Positions 3,175-11,157 of a stretch of 32,306 nucleotides of DNA are shown here, piece after piece. Below the pieces are notes generated by a model. That model worked only from the letters and a program-made list of their open reading frames with translations. It was not told the origin of the DNA and ran no database searches. The DNA is from Clostridium sp. Lineage in GTDB: Bacteria; Bacillota; Dethiobacteria; Dethiobacterales; Dethiobacteraceae. How positions within the stretch are numbered: position 1 is the stretch's first letter; each line of letters starts with the position of its first letter. The position numbers and the translations under genes are program-made. The DNA lies in NCBI GenBank assembly GCA_018335695.1, contig JAGXRV010000017.1:1-32306 (forward strand), read 5' to 3'.

Positions 3175-3633
3175 TTAAGAAGTATAACCTTTCAAAAAGA
3201 CTTCCACGTCCGCAGTATACAGCTCACGCAACTTTGTCGCATCTGCTAAGACAAGCCGCACCTTTCTCTCATCCAGTTCATATGAATAAGCGTGCCTGAA
3301 GAAATGTCTGAAAGAATGCAGATTATTCAACAAGACAAAACTCTCCTCAGATAATAAGGCAGGTCTTACGCCTTCAATCGTGAGAAGCATCCTCTTTAGT
3401 AGTTCTGCGTGATAGCGAGTCTTGTCCTCTATGTTATTCTCAAAGAAATCAGCTATTACTTTAAAAAGGTCTTCAAACGCGCAATAAAGATTATGGAGCT
3501 GATAAGCAAGGCTTTCTGTGGCTATTCTGCCCCTTTTACCCTTTCTATCATCCAGTTTTGCATAAATGCTGTCAATCTCTTTTACACGTGCATATATCTC
3601 AGCCTTCAGAAGCGCTAATCTTTCCTTTTCCAT
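3175..3633 (-). CDS. hepT: HepT-like HEPN toxin of a type VII toxin-antitoxin pair
   Basis: An all-helical protein of 152 residues in the DUF86/HepT family of HEPN RNases. The catalytic motif R-x4-H-x-Y is present as R109-H-F-F-R-H114-A-Y116; in characterised HepT the tyrosine is the residue the partner nucleotidyltransferase adenylylates to silence the toxin. The gene overlaps its upstream partner by 19 bases, the usual close coupling. The ATG has an AAGGAAGGG ribosome site inside the partner gene, and a terminator follows the stop. Substrate RNA and the trigger cannot be read from sequence. An ordinary HEPN protein without toxic activity is possible. Confidence 0.85.
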   Translation of the reverse strand: MEKERLALLKAEIYARVKEIDSIYAKLDDRKGKRGRIATESLAYQLHNLYCAFEDLFKVIADFFENNIEDKTRYHAELLKRMLLTIEGVRPALLSEESFVLLNNLHSFRHFFRHAYSYELDERKVRLVLADATKLRELYTADVEVFLKGYTS

Positions 3634-3965
3634 GGTATCCCTTCCTTGATTATCTTTTCAGCCCAGCGGTGTTCTTCCAACTGCACCACATCTACGTCAT
3701 CCTTGCCGACTTCTCCCGAGATGAACGCCATGGCTTTGAAAAAATCTTCATCCTTTAGTCCTATAAAAGCTATATCCAAATCAGAATGTTCATTGAAGCA
3801 ATGCGGCCTTGACACCGAACCAAAGACATAAGCCTGCTCAAAGTAGATTTCCTCTGCCAATTTATCCAGAACTTGCATCGCATCGGCTAATAGCTGTTTG
3901 CGGTGCTGCTCCCGCTTTAGTTTTTTCTTGGCGAGAGCACTATCTAGAAGATCGGTATTCCACAC
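3615..3965 (-). CDS. mntA: MntA-like minimal nucleotidyltransferase antitoxin
   Basis: A 116-residue minimal nucleotidyltransferase of the polymerase-beta superfamily. Motif: FGS at the start of the NTase strand, then VSRPHCFNEHS, then DLD, giving the GS...DxD active site with a metal-binding aspartate pair; the third acidic residue is probably in DVDVVQLE. Known relatives (MntA of the HepT/MntA systems) transfer AMP to the HepT tyrosine and so neutralise it. The start is GTG at 3965, 7 bases after AAGGAGGCG. An N-terminal basic helix (KKKLKREQHRK) precedes the domain. The antitoxin-first order and 19-base overlap with the hepT-like gene support the pairing. Confidence 0.85.
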   Translation of the reverse strand: MWNTDLLDSALAKKKLKREQHRKQLLADAMQVLDKLAEEIYFEQAYVFGSVSRPHCFNEHSDLDIAFIGLKDEDFFKAMAFISGEVGKDDVDVVQLEEHRWAEKIIKEGIPWKRKD

Positions 3966-4710: not shown

Positions 4711-5559
4711 TTAATCATTCTCCAAGAATTCCAATATATCCTTTTCGTTCATTGCTTTTCGAGAAATTCCAAATTCTTCAGGGCCTTTACGAGCTAGTGA
4801 TAGTAAGTATTTAAGCTTATCTTCAGTAATTTTCTTTTCTTCAAATGCATATAAAGCTGCATCCAGCAAACCATCAAATCGTATTGTATTAGTTCTCCGC
4901 TGTTGTTCAACTCCTAGTTGTAACCTTTTCTGTGCGATACGAACTGGCGAGTCTTCCTCTTTGTCAGATAAGTTCATTAACTCAAGACATTTGTCAAGAG
5001 ATATAAAATCAATTTCATAAAGACGACGCACAATTGCTTTATAGGGAACCCCAAAAACATCCATTAATCGTATAACATCAAAAAGTTTAAGATTATTGGG
5101 TCTTAAGTCTAGTTCATCTAGTTCATTTCTTAATACTCTTTTTGGTACTAAAAGCATAGCAGCAAATCTATTAGCCATGTTTTCTTTGAGACTTAATTTA
5201 TTGTCTCCATTTAAATTAAGTGTAGATAGACTAATAAAATCTCCATGTTTTAAAACATCTTCATCATACCAAATATGGTACAATTCATGAGCTGCCGCAA
5301 ATATTTGTTTATCAAACTGAATATATGAATTTACAAAAGAAAATAGTTTGCCCCCTTTGGGACAAACAAAACCACATAATTCATCATCTTCAATTGGGTA
5401 TTGTAAAAAAATTGAGTTCTTCGCTATAATACCGAAAATCTCTTCTTTAATTATTCGCAAGGATTTTCCTAACTCTGAAATTTTTGTGTTTGCTTTAAAC
5501 TCCAATTCTTTTACTATTTCCTGACTTAATTCCAAATGGCTAACCACATTCGCAGACAT
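4711..5559 (-). CDS. ImmA/IrrE-family zinc metallopeptidase
   Basis: A 282-residue protein of the COG2856 family. The zinc motif HELYH (H91-E-L-Y-H95) follows a run of alanines (AAAHELYHIWY), and the third ligand is the Glu of ENMANRFAAMLLVP (E126), the family's second signature. Relatives (ImmA of ICEBs1, IrrE/PprI) cleave an XRE-type repressor to induce its regulon. A paired XRE gene lies 5 bases upstream and a PIN protein follows. An in-frame GTG at 5568 overlaps the XRE stop, but ATG 5559 has GGAG at good spacing and is preferred. The C-terminal 90 residues (after about 190) are an added helical domain of unknown role. Confidence 0.88.
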   Translation of the reverse strand: MSANVVSHLELSQEIVKELEFKANTKISELGKSLRIIKEEIFGIIAKNSIFLQYPIEDDELCGFVCPKGGKLFSFVNSYIQFDKQIFAAAHELYHIWYDEDVLKHGDFISLSTLNLNGDNKLSLKENMANRFAAMLLVPKRVLRNELDELDLRPNNLKLFDVIRLMDVFGVPYKAIVRRLYEIDFISLDKCLELMNLSDKEEDSPVRIAQKRLQLGVEQQRRTNTIRFDGLLDAALYAFEEKKITEDKLKYLLSLARKGPEEFGISRKAMNEKDILEFLEND

Positions 5560-5564
5560 ATTAT

Positions 5565-5915
5565 TCACTCCACTTGATTCTGCAATAAATTAGTCAATTC
5601 TACCATTTCATCCATTACATGATCAAGAAATCTTAAATCATCCTTAGTATTTGGTTTGCTAACAGAACCCATCATTACAAAGACTGGATTGATTATCTGG
5701 TGCTCCTCATATTTCATTAAATAATCAAAAGAAACATTCATTATTGAAGCTAATTTGGATACTTCTATTACATTAATAGCTTTTTTGCCATGAACTATTT
5801 TACTCATAACTTGTTTAGAAACACCAAACTTTTCAGCTAACTCTGTTTGACTCATCTTATTTTCTTCTAAATACAACTGGATTTTATCTCCAATCTGTTC
5901 AAACAGATCTTTCAT
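5565..5915 (-). CDS. XRE-family repressor paired with the ImmA-like protease
   Basis: A 116-residue protein with an N-terminal Cro/CI helix-turn-helix at about residues 15-65: MSQTELAEKFGVSKQVMSKI, then HGKKAINVIEVSKLASIM. A C-terminal helical extension of about 50 residues may bind the protease or dimerise. ATG 5915 is chosen because GGGAGG lies 8 bases upstream; a longer frame to 5993 would cover the promoter. It is the first gene of the three-gene operon and probably represses its own promoter, in the manner of ImmR/ImmA pairs; this last point is inference. Confidence 0.85.
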   Translation of the reverse strand: MKDLFEQIGDKIQLYLEENKMSQTELAEKFGVSKQVMSKIVHGKKAINVIEVSKLASIMNVSFDYLMKYEEHQIINPVFVMMGSVSKPNTKDDLRFLDHVMDEMVELTNLLQNQVE

Positions 5916-5944
5916 TAGATAACCTCCCTTTTCCCCTCGTCTAT

Positions 5945-5974
5945 AAAATATCATAGTATACAAGCTATCGTCAA
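5945..5974 (-). promoter_or_regulatory. Sigma-A-type promoter of the XRE-ImmA-PIN operon
   Basis: Minus strand: -35 TTGACG (5969-5974), 18-base spacer, -10 TATTTT (5945-5950). The spacer contains ATAG...CTAT arms around GTATAC, a possible operator for the XRE protein. It is 30 bases upstream of the XRE ATG. Confidence 0.6.
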
Positions 5975-6150
5975 CAATATGTTTACCTATCATTTAAAAC
6001 GATACAGTTTTGGGCAATTATTATATGAAAAATCAAATAATCTTATACATATTTTCAACATATTATTTACGAAGTTTGCATCATGTAGTCAGCTAATGAA
6101 CCATTCTTCGCTTTCAATCCATTCATCATCGATTAAATCACGAAGGCTGT

Positions 6151-6247
6151 TGGCGGGAGTAGGTGGGAATCGAACCCACCACGGACGGGTCAACGCCCGC
6201 CACCGGATTTGAAGTCCGGGGCCCTCACCAGGCAGACATCTACTCCC
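6151..6247 (-). tRNA. selC: Selenocysteine tRNA, anticodon TCA
   Basis: A 97-base tRNA including an encoded CCA. The acceptor stem is 8 bp (GGGAGTAG with CTACTCCC), the anticodon arm is CCGGA-CTTCAAA-TCCGG with anticodon TCA, the variable arm is long (around GGCGGGCGTTGACCCGTCC), and the T arm is GTGGG-TTCGATT-CCCAC. The 8-bp acceptor, long variable arm, TCA anticodon and G discriminator base are the features of bacterial tRNA-Sec. The organism should therefore have selA, selB, selD and UGA-decoding selenoproteins elsewhere; none is in this window. The tRNA stands alone, and a defence-like gene block begins just past its 3' end. Confidence 0.96.
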
Positions 6248-6432: not shown

Positions 6433-7089
6433 CTAGGGATTATTTTTGGTCTGCTCGGCATGGACATAGAAGCTGACCACCGGCACAATCCCTTGCAGGT
6501 CATTGCCTGCATCACTATCCATAGTTACCTCATAGACCAGCTGCACCATGGGCGGCCAAAACCCTGTATATGGAGCGATAGCCGGCTTGTAGATGCAATT
6601 CTGCGGACCGGCAAGCAACGTGGTTAGTGAACCGTTAAACAACACCTTGTTTGTAGGATGCCCGGCCACATAGATCTTGACATTCATGTTGTCGGCAAAA
6701 TAGTCTGCCAAGCTCTGATTTTCCGTTGGATCCTCGCCATTGATCGAAGTAATCGCCGCCGAGACCTGGTTCAGCCGTACCCGCAGTGAACCAAGGTTGC
6801 GTACATCTAAGTTGCGAGCCACTGTCCGCCCGGGCCACCAGACGTCTGTGACATTTTCCAGCAACTCCTCCTGCCCTGGCTCGACCGCTCCTTCAGCAAT
6901 CGTGGTGTAAAACATCGGACCGGGAATCGGGTCTCCAAGGTCGCGGTCGGCAGCAATATCCACCGTGCCGGCCGTGAAGATGTTCCCGTCATTGTCAGCC
7001 GTATCGGTGAAGATGGCCACGGTAGCGCCGCCTGCCAGCCCCGCTACGAGTAGCACCGCCAGTACCAGTACAAATAGTTTTGTTTTCAT
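6433..7089 (-). CDS. TasA/camelysin-like matrix protein with SipW-type signal peptide (second copy)
   Basis: A secreted protein of 218 residues. The N terminus MKTKLFVLVLAVLLVAGLAG followed by GATVAIFTDTADNDGNIFTAGTVDI is the SipW-dependent signal peptide plus the conserved start of the mature TasA/CalY family, with cleavage expected near A-x-FTD. The rest is a beta-sandwich-like domain (VRNLGSLRVRLNQVSA) ending in EQTKNNP, an ending shared with the gene upstream. A GGAGG site precedes the ATG. It is 65 bases downstream of its shorter paralogue, with a hairpin between. Probably a fibre or surface subunit; camelysin-type protease activity cannot be excluded. Confidence 0.87.
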   Translation of the reverse strand: MKTKLFVLVLAVLLVAGLAGGATVAIFTDTADNDGNIFTAGTVDIAADRDLGDPIPGPMFYTTIAEGAVEPGQEELLENVTDVWWPGRTVARNLDVRNLGSLRVRLNQVSAAITSINGEDPTENQSLADYFADNMNVKIYVAGHPTNKVLFNGSLTTLLAGPQNCIYKPAIAPYTGFWPPMVQLVYEVTMDSDAGNDLQGIVPVVSFYVHAEQTKNNP

Positions 7090-7154: not shown

Positions 7155-7625
7155 CTATTCGACGGGATTGTTGGCGGTCTGCTCGGCCTCGATGGTGAAG
7201 TCAACAGTACCGGTTGCACCCTGGTAATCGTTGTTGGCACCAATTGGCAGTTCTACAGTGAATGACACAATGGCAGATTCACCAGGCTCCAGCACTACAT
7301 CTTGGTCATCTTCAAGCCCGCCGACCGTTGCGGGGGTGTCGCCAAGGAACAGAGCACCGCTACCTTCGGCCGACACATCAAACCGCAGTTCCAGTGTGCC
7401 GTCATTTTCCACGGTAAAGCTGCCGGTAACGGTATCTCCAGGCGCCATGTTGCCGGCGGCTAACGGTAACGTTGTAGCTCCGACGGTGTTAATGTCAATC
7501 GTGCCTGCGGTAAAGGTATTGCCCTCGTTAACAGCTTCATCGGTGAAGATAGCCATGGTGGCACCGCCTACCAAAGCGGCCGCCAGAGCGATAACCAGCA
7601 TACTTGTAAACATTTTCGTTTTCAT
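7155..7625 (-). CDS. TasA/camelysin-like matrix protein with SipW-type signal peptide (first copy)
   Basis: A secreted protein of 156 residues. The N terminus MKTKMFTSMLVIALAAALVG leads into GATMAIFTDEAVNEGNTFTA and GTIDI, the hallmark of SipW substrates. The mature part has VTGSFTVENDGTLELRFDVS, LEPGESAIVSFTVELP and a final TIEAEQTANNP; this is a compact Ig-like/TasA fold without obvious catalytic residues. A GGAGG site is 9 bases before the ATG. The 183-base gap upstream holds a c-di-GMP-I riboswitch, so expression of this gene and its paralogue should follow c-di-GMP level. SipW is encoded immediately upstream. Confidence 0.9.
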   Translation of the reverse strand: MKTKMFTSMLVIALAAALVGGATMAIFTDEAVNEGNTFTAGTIDINTVGATTLPLAAGNMAPGDTVTGSFTVENDGTLELRFDVSAEGSGALFLGDTPATVGGLEDDQDVVLEPGESAIVSFTVELPIGANNDYQGATGTVDFTIEAEQTANNPVE

Positions 7626-7684
7626 TTTTCAAAACCTCCGGTTAGATTATTTTTTGGCGCACAAGCGGTACGCCGCGCCCGCTT

Positions 7685-7764
7685 CCGGGCAGCCTGGCAA
7701 CCTTAACAATTTTAAGGCCCAACGGCTTTGCGTCACTGCCTCACAACAGCTTTGCCCCTACCGG
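7685..7764 (-). promoter_or_regulatory. Cyclic di-GMP-I (GEMM) riboswitch aptamer
   Basis: Minus strand from 7764: CCGGTAG opens P1, GGGCAAAG is the conserved junction, CTGTT-GTGA-GGCAG is P2 capped by a GNRA tetraloop, GTGACGCAAAGCC is the near-invariant GACGCAAAGCC block, GGGCCTTAA...TTAAGG is P3, and GGTTGCCAGG-CTGCC carries the conserved 3' strand that closes P1 with GGTAG. These are the class I c-di-GMP aptamer elements in order. Downstream GCCCG-GAAG-CGGGC can compete with P1 (expression platform), but no T run follows, so the output mode is unclear. It lies in the leader of the first tasA-like gene. Confidence 0.9.
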
Positions 7765-7808
7765 TTTTTGCCGTCACCGACAGACTTTGAATCATGCTAA
7801 ATCCCCCG

Positions 7809-8414
7809 CTAGCTTCCCCCCTTCAATTGTTTTTCTCTTTCCAAAGCCTGCGCGTAGCCCATAAGCTTGCGTAGCTCTGTAGCGATAATCAGAACCGCCG
7901 GCACAATGACGAGCAGAACAATTCCCATTCTGGTCCTAACAAAACTGAAGAGAAAACCAAGATAAGGTATGTTGAAGTCCACACGCCCGATCAGGTTAGC
8001 GGCAGGGAGCGGTAGCGGGTCGTTAGCGTCGTTGGCGTCACCGCGGGTGATAAAGCTGACGGGATCAGTGGGTTTTACAGTTATGATTCGGTGAGTAACG
8101 ATTGTTTCGGCTCTTTCCGGATCGGGGTCGCGGTAGGTGATGATGTCTCCAACCTGTGCTGCGGCTGCTTCGATGGGCCGTACCAGCACTACGCTTCCAG
8201 CCTCAAAGGCGGGACTCATGCTGCCTCCCTCAACAATATACAACTGGTACCCTGCCACGGCGCTAACGCCACCAGTCATCCTGTTCTGCAAGAGAAAATA
8301 GACAAACACAGCCATCAGCAGCAATATGCAGGCAAACAGGAGTTGACCGACAAGGCGTACAATTTTACGCACAGTGGTTAATGCTCCGGACTGCTTTGCG
8401 ACTGCTGTTTCCAT
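7809..8414 (-). CDS. sipW: SipW-type signal peptidase I
   Basis: Membrane serine protease of the ER/archaeal-like S26B group, 201 residues. One transmembrane segment near residues 20-42 (LLFACILLLMAVFVYFLLQN), the catalytic Ser in VEGGSMSPAFEAGSVV, and the His in VTHRIITV instead of the Lys of ordinary bacterial signal peptidases. The ITRGDANDANDPLPLP box and a second hydrophobic segment near the C terminus (IVLLVIVPAVLII) follow. It should process the neighbouring TapA- and TasA-like proteins. ATG 8414 forms TGATG with the upstream stop; a TTG at 8417 is a possible alternative with the same GAGGTG site. Confidence 0.93.
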   Translation of the reverse strand: METAVAKQSGALTTVRKIVRLVGQLLFACILLLMAVFVYFLLQNRMTGGVSAVAGYQLYIVEGGSMSPAFEAGSVVLVRPIEAAAAQVGDIITYRDPDPERAETIVTHRIITVKPTDPVSFITRGDANDANDPLPLPAANLIGRVDFNIPYLGFLFSFVRTRMGIVLLVIVPAVLIIATELRKLMGYAQALEREKQLKGGS

Positions 8415-9313
8415 CAATTTTCACCTCGTTGTTTTCCTGCCTTGGTCTCTTTATTCTTGGTTTGGCCTGCAGCTTTTTCCGGTTCCCAGAAATCGTTAAC
8501 ATTTTTACTGTCACCGTTTATAACATTGTCAACACTCATGCACTGGTAAACGCTTTCAGTAACTCCCTGAGGCTTGTAAATTGCTTCGCTGGCAGTTTGC
8601 TGACAAATGTTCTGCTGCTTTATGTCCTTACCGTTTTTCTTGTCATCATCATCATCGTCTTTGTCTTTGTCTTTATCTTTTTCTTTGCCATCATCGTCTT
8701 TATCATCTTTATCATCTTTGCCCGTTTCCGCCAAACGCAGGCGAGCGGGCAACTCTCTGATTATAAAGCCGTTTAATGCTGAAAGATGCAGAGAGCCAAA
8801 ATACTCGCCGGGCGCATCCGAAGAGGCATCCAGTTTGAAGCCCAATTCAATTTTGTCACCCGGTTCCAAGATAACTTCCTCATTCTGGGTTTCGAAATGC
8901 TGTGCCAGCGATTCGGAAAAATACCAGTTCAGAGTCAAGATGCGGTCGCCAATATTTTTAACGGTAAGCACATGAGGAAAGTTCCTGTTGTTACCGGAGG
9001 GGTAGGTGCCAAAATTAAGGTAAATCTGCTCATTGACGCTTTTTGCTACCTTAAAGGCCGGGCCTGGATTACCTGGGCTGTCGTTCGTTTTACTCTTCCC
9101 AGGGGAAATTGTCAGGTTTTCGGCAAATGATGTGGCACGAAAAGCAGCTTGCGTCTCCTCCCGATCGGTAAAGTAAGCTATTGTAACCGGCAACTGCCAC
9201 ACGAAATAGAACAAGAGAATTATGGCGGCAACCCAACAAGCTTGACAGAAATCCTTTAATGCCTTTCGTCTGGCTTCCAAGCGACGCCTGCGGCGCTGCT
9301 GCAACCTGCTCAT
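8414..9313 (-). CDS. TapA-like matrix assembly protein with acidic low-complexity tail
   Basis: A 299-residue protein. It has an Arg-rich N terminus (RRRRRLEARRK), a membrane segment at about 28-46, and a SipW-type junction IAYFTDREETQAAF. A beta-sandwich region (about 88-195) contains LTVKNIGDRILTLNWYFSES and VILEPGDKIELGF. A Lys/Asp run at 199-227 and a polar C terminus with C237 and C258 complete it. Basic start, TM, Ig-like domain, charged tail and the position just before sipW match Bacillus TapA, the anchor/nucleator of TasA fibres; direct similarity is not claimed. ATG 9313 is chosen for GGAGGG 9 bases upstream; a frame to 9388 lacks a site. Confidence 0.75.
   Translation of the reverse strand: MSRLQQRRRRRLEARRKALKDFCQACWVAAIILLFYFVWQLPVTIAYFTDREETQAAFRATSFAENLTISPGKSKTNDSPGNPGPAFKVAKSVNEQIYLNFGTYPSGNNRNFPHVLTVKNIGDRILTLNWYFSESLAQHFETQNEEVILEPGDKIELGFKLDASSDAPGEYFGSLHLSALNGFIIRELPARLRLAETGKDDKDDKDDDGKEKDKDKDKDDDDDDKKNGKDIKQQNICQQTASEAIYKPQGVTESVYQCMSVDNVINGDSKNVNDFWEPEKAAGQTKNKETKAGKQRGEN
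8633..8719 (-). repeat. Lys/Asp codon repeat in the TapA-like gene
   Basis: Residues 199-227 are almost only Asp and Lys (blocks such as KDDKDDKDDD and KDKDKDKDDDDDD), encoded by slipped GAT/GAC-AAA units. The run is in frame throughout. Such tracts change length by replication slippage in multiples of three. Confidence 0.9.
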
Positions 9314-9424
9314 TAGTTGCCCTCCTGTTTTTTTGCGTGATTCGTGCCCGAAGCAAAACCCAAGCCTAATACCTAAATACCTAGACAACTTTTCCCGGCA
9401 AGAAATTCTTCACTTCAGTAAAGC

Positions 9425-9939: not shown

Positions 9940-11157
9940 TTAGGTCTTGTCAGGCGGGGTTAAAGACTGCAACCTGCTTCTCAGCAGCAGCTCACGTTCT
10001 TTGAGGCCGGCGGCCAGACGCTGCAGAATACGCTGCCCCTGCTCCGGGGTGGTGTTTGGCAACAGAACCATAAACTGCTGCTGGCCAAAGCGGCAAAGCA
10101 CATCGCTTTTGCGCAGGGCGTCCTGCAGAACCTCCTGCAAAGCAGCCATGTCCTCCTGCCATGTTCTGGCTGTTTCAGTGCCAAGTTCTGAGGAGGTTGC
10201 AGCCAACAAGGCCAACAATCCTTGCCCACCGTTTCTTTCCGCTCGACGAATTTCCAGGTTGCAGATAACATTAAAAAATTCCGGCTCGCAAAAGAAAGCC
10301 TCATTAGTCTGCTGCCTACTTTGCATGGCCTCCCGAAAAGCGGAAAAATCCAGGACTTTGCCGCTATCGCTGTCACGTTCCTGAATGAGGCGGAGCATTC
10401 GTTTCATGGCCGGGGAAGGCTTCAGTCCCATTTCCCGGTAAAAAACGGATGTGACATTTTCATAATGCCATTTTGATTGCGCTACCTTTCCATCATCCAG
10501 CAGCGCCTCGAGCAAAATCAAGTGCAGCTCTTCCTCAAAATAGTCAATCAGCAGCGCCCTGGTTATCTCTTCAACTATTTCCGTATAAGCATGTGACTCT
10601 CTAAGCAGCAGAGCCAGTTCCACTACACTTTGCAAATACAAGCGACGGTAATGGCTTCTGAGGGGTATCAACCAGTCACTGTAAGGACACTCAGGCAACA
10701 AGTCTCCTTTATAAAGTGACAGCCCCTGTCTGTACAGATTTATGGCTTCCTGTATCAAACCCTGTTGTGCAGCAAGACGAGCCTGGCGGCAACAGGATTC
10801 AAAAACGTTTACATCTACCCATAAGTCCTGGTGACGATTAAAGGTATAGCCCCCTTGGGTAAATCTAATTAAATCCACTCCTTCACCAAGCAGGCTGCGC
10901 AGGCGGTGGATTAGCGTACGGACAGCGCTTTTTGCATTATCGTAGGGCTGGTTCGGCCATAACTGTTCTACGATAACATCCGGGAGCAGAACGCGGTCTT
11001 GGTTAACCAGCAAATATTTAAACAGATCCCATACCTTGCGTGAACGCCCACGCGTTTCAGAAAGGAATTTATCCCCGTCTTTTACCACAAAATGTCCCAA
11101 AGTAAAAACTTTAAGCTGTTTGCTTTCCGTCTCCGTCAAGATATCCTTTTCACCCAT
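9940..11157 (-). CDS. SARP/BTAD-type regulator with degenerate GGDEF domain
   Basis: A 405-residue cytoplasmic regulator. Residues about 15-105 are an OmpR-like winged helix (FTLGHFVVKDGDKFL, then WDLFKYLLVN...AVRTLIHRLRSLLG). Residues about 110-255 are a bacterial transcriptional activation domain of TPR-like helices (VDVNVFESCCRQARLAAQQG, YSDWLIPLRSHYRRLYLQSV). The C-terminal 130 residues resemble a nucleotidyl-cyclase fold: ALRKSDVLCRFGQQQFMVLL occupies the position of the GGDEF motif but reads GQQQF, so it is probably inactive and may bind a nucleotide. ATG 11157 follows GGAGG. It may control the adjacent matrix or LuxR genes. Domain order is seen; target is inferred. Confidence 0.85.
   Translation of the reverse strand: MGEKDILTETESKQLKVFTLGHFVVKDGDKFLSETRGRSRKVWDLFKYLLVNQDRVLLPDVIVEQLWPNQPYDNAKSAVRTLIHRLRSLLGEGVDLIRFTQGGYTFNRHQDLWVDVNVFESCCRQARLAAQQGLIQEAINLYRQGLSLYKGDLLPECPYSDWLIPLRSHYRRLYLQSVVELALLLRESHAYTEIVEEITRALLIDYFEEELHLILLEALLDDGKVAQSKWHYENVTSVFYREMGLKPSPAMKRMLRLIQERDSDSGKVLDFSAFREAMQSRQQTNEAFFCEPEFFNVICNLEIRRAERNGGQGLLALLAATSSELGTETARTWQEDMAALQEVLQDALRKSDVLCRFGQQQFMVLLPNTTPEQGQRILQRLAAGLKERELLLRSRLQSLTPPDKT

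Follow-up and report, generated by a model that had tools for sequence, protein, structure and literature searches.

A c-di-GMP-I riboswitch aptamer between sipW and tasA-like genes in the Dethiobacteria and its probable role in fibre synthesis

In Bacillus biofilms, TasA-type fibres form the principal protein scaffold; their control is by SinR, as is that of the tapA-sipW-tasA operon of Bacillus subtilis. In the window studied here (the whole analysed stretch of 32,306 nucleotides, from a Clostridium sp. of the family Dethiobacteraceae), an operon of similar layout is interrupted, after sipW and ahead of the first tasA-like gene, by an apparent c-di-GMP riboswitch. This arrangement raises the question of whether c-di-GMP governs the fibre subunits apart from the machinery that exports them and, if so, at which level and in which direction.

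The aptamer and its neighbouring genes

When the window was scanned with cmscan against all 4227 Rfam families, RF01051 (c-di-GMP-I, also GEMM-I) was matched on the minus strand at 7685–7766, over the full length of the model (positions 1–87), with 54.4 bits and an E-value of 3.6e-8, the gathering score of the family being 35 bits. The covariance model thus confirms the class I aptamer that had been proposed in a sequence-only reading of this DNA, and the conserved blocks GGGGCAAA, a GUGA-capped P2, GACGCAAAGCC and GCCAGG are all present. One other family was matched, tRNA-Sec, and this selenocysteine tRNA gene (6155–6247, minus strand) lies just downstream of the tasA genes. In a whole-genome RF01051 search the window aptamer was the sole c-di-GMP-I aptamer found, and a whole-genome search for c-di-GMP-II aptamers, which was also silent in every control genome, found none. 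The elements of the aptamer are as follows, with contact bases numbered after the Vc2 structure.

7685–7766, minus strand: c-di-GMP-I riboswitch aptamer of a short-P3 type, without the 11-nt tetraloop receptor (RF01051)
7735–7750, minus strand: P2 hairpin with GUGA tetraloop (cmscan alignment; double changes in five of six P2 pairs among relatives)
7692–7726, minus strand: P3 helix without the CUAA/UAUGA receptor (cmscan alignment; double changes in four pairs)
7755, minus strand: predicted ligand contact G20 (alignment to the Vc2 aptamer; G in 18 of 19 tasA leaders)
7728, minus strand: predicted ligand contact A47 (A in 19 of 19 tasA leaders; RF03167 has G here)
7689, minus strand: predicted ligand contact C92 (C in 19 of 19 tasA leaders)

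The aptamer differs from the textbook c-di-GMP-I fold in one respect: the GUGA loop is present and, in the cmscan alignment, the internal loop of P3 that makes up the 11-nt receptor (CUAA...UAUGA) is deleted, which accounts for the lower score of 54.4 bits. Docking of a GNRA tetraloop into this receptor is common to many c-di-GMP-I members, not to all, and is not strictly required. Because the family model still passes, we take the loss as the mark of a subtype and not as exclusion from RF01051.

Profile matches bear out the location of the aptamer, downstream of sipW and ahead of tasA-like gene 1. The order on the minus strand is a BTAD/SARP regulator, a membrane-anchored protein, sipW, 183 nt containing the aptamer, and tasA-like genes 1 and 2.

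9940–11157, minus strand: BTAD/SARP-type regulator with a C-terminal degenerate GGDEF, RFGQQQF (PF03704, 69.4 bits; PF00990, 31.6 bits)
8414–9388, minus strand: membrane-anchored 324-aa protein in the tapA position, overlapping the sipW start (homologues in the genus and in genome G006)
7809–8417, minus strand: sipW-type signal peptidase I, 202 aa (TIGR02228, 122 bits)
7155–7625, minus strand: tasA-like gene 1, 156 aa, SipW-dependent signal, camelysin/TasA family (PF12389, 60.5 bits; TIGR04088, 28.6 bits)
6433–7089, minus strand: tasA-like gene 2, 218 aa, SipW-dependent signal (PF12389, 34.9 bits; TIGR04088, 23 bits)

Both tasA-like genes are above the cut-offs of PF12389 and TIGR04088 and below that of the TasA equivalog NF046066; a PDB search gave weak support for likeness of gene 1 to the solved TasA chains 5of1/8aur (E 0.0024). 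The peptidase likewise matches NF046067 at 119 bits, under the 190 cut-off of that model. The label "TapA-like", earlier applied to the 324-aa protein, found no backing, as no TapA match was obtained in Pfam, NCBIfam or the PDB and its sole Pfam signal is a weak Ig-like match below cut-off; the label therefore describes position and a SipW-substrate-like N-terminus. Only 43 nt separate sipW from the aptamer, and a search for a promoter there turned up no promoter-like site close upstream on the minus strand. The genome has nine GGDEF matches, six of them strong, so that c-di-GMP is probably made there.

The truncated GGDEF of the BTAD/SARP regulator is apparently inactive, and homologues of this regulator occur near tasA loci in many genera. 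Downstream of the operon lie a HepT-like/nucleotidyltransferase pair (MNT-HepT type toxin-antitoxin) and an HTH/ImmA-IrrE-type pair (3175–3965 and 4711–5993, minus strand).

Recurrence before TasA-like genes and level of control

PF12389 is matched in 36 of 98 genomes of the class, and the neighbourhoods of these matches were annotated and scanned with Rfam. An aptamer of c-di-GMP-I type lies 19–68 nt before a TasA-like start codon in 19 genomes, which represent four families of the class: nine in the window's own family (G000, G001, G003, G004, G005, G006, G008, G009, G013), seven in family f3 (G030, G046, G062, G067, G074, G079, G084), two in f5 (G092, G097) and one in f6 (G055). One of them, G097, has no PF12389 match, its gene having a TasA-like signal and N-terminus; it was the one further tasA leader among the top matches when a model built from the tasA leaders was run on the 98 genomes. 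In a twentieth genome, G010, the contig ends within the gene that follows the aptamer. The relatives with a name are Dethiobacter MAGs, and both close ones (L033, L034) share the sipW-aptamer-tasA junction. In about 17 PF12389-positive genomes no aptamer was found at a tasA gene within the stretches searched.

Typically the regulator and the membrane protein come first, followed by sipW, in many cases by a long TasA-like protein, and then by the aptamer, the main TasA-like protein and more subunits; in G079 and G084 the aptamer stands at the head of tasA with no sipW upstream. It had been suggested that c-di-GMP gates the fibre subunits apart from SipW. This is upheld in so far as the aptamer directly precedes a TasA-like gene in 19 genomes, mostly after sipW, and c-di-GMP probably acts directly on fibre synthesis, independently of the export machinery. 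The suggestion does not hold for all fibre subunits, as in most other genera the first long TasA-like gene is upstream of the aptamer; gene order there supports a gated set that would start with the main TasA-like gene and include the genes that follow. In G008, directly downstream of the riboswitch-tasA operon, a PAS-GGDEF-HD protein with an intact GGDEF motif is encoded (L133:2060–3820, minus strand), a c-di-GMP enzyme adjoining its presumed target.

The tasA leaders were compared with 39 other c-di-GMP-I aptamers of the same class, in which pattern matching is rough. The UAUGA half of the receptor occurs in none of the 19 tasA leaders and in 31 of the 39 controls. P2 loops of the tasA set are mostly GUGA, GCGA or GCAA, the commonest loop recovered in the controls being GAAA. 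A run of at least five U residues between aptamer and start is present in 25 of 39 controls and in 0 of 19 tasA leaders, and no intrinsic terminator was found between the window aptamer and tasA. Since there is no U-tract and the spacers are short, control is probably exerted at translation.

Another short-P3 subtype of c-di-GMP-I, several of its members with a GUAA loop, was seen at L216 (G035), L207, L210, L214 and L218; the L216 aptamer is followed by a primase-polymerase-like gene that may belong to a mobile element.

Switching strands, covariation and rival explanations

Three copies of CCGG in the window leader, two of which could form P1 and one of which overlaps the Shine-Dalgarno sequence, can form pairings that are mutually exclusive.

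7761–7764, minus strand: CCGG, candidate 5' strand of P1, just inside the aptamer 5' end (sequence; MFE folds)
7685–7688, minus strand: CCGG, candidate 3' strand of P1 and switching strand, next to C92 (sequence; duplex analysis)
7677–7690, minus strand: GCCCG-GAAG-CGGGC hairpin that would sequester C92 and compete with the ligand-bound fold (MFE folds)
7635–7641, minus strand: CCGGAGG, Shine-Dalgarno sequence overlapping the third CCGG at 7638–7641 (sequence; 9 nt before the ATG at 7625)

The MFE fold without ligand retains P2 and P3, holds C92 in the hairpin and has the 5' CCGG paired to the Shine-Dalgarno region; the C92-sequestering hairpin is also possible in the leaders of G003 and G006. 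We favour, as a reading that is on balance probable, an internal translational c-di-GMP-I riboswitch acting as an ON switch for the tasA-like genes. The upstream part of the mRNA would give the tapA-position protein and SipW at any c-di-GMP level, and the intergenic aptamer would govern ribosome access to tasA-like gene 1 and, probably by coupling, to gene 2. In the ligand-free state a complementary CCGG strand would hold the Shine-Dalgarno sequence, with C92 held in the GCCCG/CGGGC hairpin. Ligand binding, which would require a free C92, would favour pairing between the aptamer ends, so that with c-di-GMP bound at G20, A47 and C92 these would pair as P1, the Shine-Dalgarno sequence would be freed, and at high c-di-GMP the fibre subunits would be made.

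The clearest counterpart is the leader of G097, in which CCGGUUUG, starting at C92 and containing C92-C93, pairs with CAAACCGG-AGG in an 8-bp Shine-Dalgarno hairpin and can alternatively pair as P1 with CAAACGG 5' of the aptamer. By duplex analysis G009 and G013 have the same three-strand logic with different sequences. Across the set, P1 strands match their own leader more closely than other leaders (permutation p 0.024–0.042), and the fit of the Shine-Dalgarno strands to their own leader is less clear (p 0.03–0.09). With the core and the best-scoring, automatically chosen P1 enforced, the Shine-Dalgarno sequence becomes more accessible, by over 0.1, in 11 of 20 leaders and less accessible in four, and without P1 enforced the counts vary with the flank used. 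The window itself changes little (0.29 to 0.42 with core and P1 enforced), and the family f3 leaders have hardly any P1 pairing. The window pairings and the clearer examples (G097, G009, G013) favour an ON switch, towards which the folding statistics only lean, the secondary-structure energies leaving out tertiary fold and ligand.

The same riboswitch could conceivably work in the opposite sense, c-di-GMP binding hiding the Shine-Dalgarno sequence and repressing fibre synthesis. Accessibility is indeed lost in the bound model for G004 and G013 in one folding set and for G005 and G055 with core and P1 enforced, and the direction of c-di-GMP-I riboswitches varies from gene to gene. We nevertheless consider an OFF switch unlikely, because the clearest leaders free the Shine-Dalgarno sequence when bound (by their pairings in G097, G009 and G013, by folding in G030) and because c-di-GMP usually promotes matrix formation.

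Two further candidate pairings were dropped. Matches suggesting covariation of the base after C93 with the base before GGAGG equalled chance in a hand test, and the 5' strand of P3 (CCUUC), considered as an anti-Shine-Dalgarno strand, prevails in the free fold in just two leaders, G030 and G067, and is not general. In families f1, f5 and f6 a TTGTCGG(T/C)G-like motif precedes the aptamer by 10–25 nt (7770–7785, minus strand, in the window); in G009 and G013 it can form a long P1 with GCCGAGGGG.

Covariation was assessed on 18 aligned aptamers, with the structure transferred from the cmscan alignment, against 500 shuffles and slid controls. Of the cells, 92.1% are paired; nine pairs have double changes, and the 24 double-change cells were reached in none of the 500 shuffles. 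Four of five covariation measures beat every shuffle, the fifth exceeded all but five of them, and the slid controls were far lower. The contacts G20/A47/C92 are kept together in 18 of 19 tasA leaders (the window and 17 others), the exception being the degenerate 37.6-bit aptamer of G084. These data bear on a second alternative, in which the structure is mainly an intercistronic processing or stability element that raises tasA mRNA over sipW, the ligand response being minor or lost. The position between machinery genes and those for abundant subunits and the stability of the stems would suit such an element, and operons with selective RNA processing exist (PMC8219983). Conservation nevertheless extends beyond the stems to the ligand-contact bases and the entire core, and a stability stem would have no need of G20, A47 and C92; we regard this alternative as improbable.

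From the contact bases c-di-GMP is the expected ligand, and we infer that it is the one bound. Recognition of another nucleotide, such as c-AMP-GMP or the ligand of the c-di-GMP-I-GGC variant (RF03167), seems slightly less probable still. RF03167 is the best match for many of the relatives' tasA leaders, and the weak G084 leader has A20, the c-AMP-GMP-type base; the leaders nonetheless keep A47 in 19 of 19 cases where the RF03167 consensus has G47 (GACGCGAA), and the window is matched best by RF01051 and has G20, not the A20 of the c-AMP-GMP (GEMM-Ib) type. The better RF03167 scores are explained by the shared short P3 without receptor and not by the contact bases, and with A47 kept we rejected them as a sign of a different ligand.

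That the aptamer is a chance or decayed, functionless riboswitch beside tasA is very improbable: its 54.4 bits fall below the 70–94 bits of many aptamers of the class, yet it recurs with covariation at the same place in four families, and by our own estimate coincidence within 200 nt of tasA would be expected about 0.02 times in 60 genomes at about four aptamers per genome.

Known systems and other tasA loci

With c-di-GMP-I (RF01051) the tasA aptamers share the core, the P2/P3 layout and the contacts G20/A47/C92; they differ in the missing 11-nt receptor, in GUGA or GCGA mostly replacing GAAA, in the lack of a terminator, in lying inside operons and in their TasA-type targets. The short P3 without receptor is shared with c-di-GMP-I-GGC (RF03167), from which they differ in keeping A47, the defining G47 being absent. 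As in the B. subtilis tapA-sipW-tasA operon, a membrane protein comes first and a SipW-type peptidase is followed by TasA-family subunits, but the window operon is split by a c-di-GMP riboswitch and its first gene has no TapA homology. Among Firmicutes leaders, the Bacillus thuringiensis Bc1 c-di-GMP-I riboswitch is reported to have two rho-independent terminators (PMC11218506) and Bc3-5 to occupy a 5'-UTR (PMC4759541), whereas the window aptamer has no terminator and is operon-internal. The c-di-GMP riboswitches of Clostridioides difficile also tie surface structures to the signal, with different genes that are apparently not TasA or SipW (PMC6200980). A search of the open-access literature did not turn up any account of TasA/SipW genes under a c-di-GMP riboswitch. 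The riboswitch class is known; the conserved TasA target and the mostly operon-internal placement are apparently unreported, a novelty that is provisional, the search having covered open-access papers.

A further 19 PF12389 loci outside the class were scanned with Rfam. At one, a c-di-GMP-II aptamer follows a sipW-like gene and precedes a TasA-like one at a distance of about 570 nt (L175:2352–2436, minus strand); at another, a c-di-GMP-I + c-di-GMP-II tandem heads a sipW-tasA-tasA operon (L187:2682–2968, minus strand). Within the class, a c-di-GMP-II aptamer heads the sipW-tasA operon of G022 (L139:10652–10735, minus strand). The placement at L175, L187 and L139 suggests that c-di-GMP riboswitches may have been recruited repeatedly at tasA loci. 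In G005 a c-di-GMP-II aptamer lies about 670 nt upstream of the tasA-locus SARP regulator (L127:11757–11839, minus strand). Of L164–L168, the five loci whose PF12389 matches are longest, two have aptamer matches, which lie on the strand opposite the TasA-like gene and are therefore not its leader.

At tasA loci of family f3 and G022 the SipW signal peptidase is fused C-terminally in proteins of 589–762 aa (L143:9376–11382, L150:318–2606, L151:3128–5206, L139:8228–9997), preceded by a response-regulator receiver domain and a long charged linker, an unusual cytoplasmic-sensor/membrane-peptidase architecture. Response_reg (Pfam) is matched in three of the four, one of them just below cut-off, and L139 only resembles a receiver.

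Taken as a whole, it seems rather likely that RNA-level c-di-GMP control of TasA fibres is an old rule of the class, effected by an internal translational ON switch that would uncouple the subunits from the export and anchoring machinery, with independent recruitment elsewhere in the phylum (class II at L175, tandem I + II at L187) and, within the class, at L139. As the window aptamer is the sole c-di-GMP-I aptamer found in its genome and no class II aptamer was found there, fibre synthesis may be the one process of this organism that is controlled by a c-di-GMP riboswitch. If the reading is true, a widespread signal for sessility would be linked directly to the TasA-type matrix in another class, and a second regulatory logic would stand beside that of Bacillus, in which the machinery is made first and the fibres on signal.
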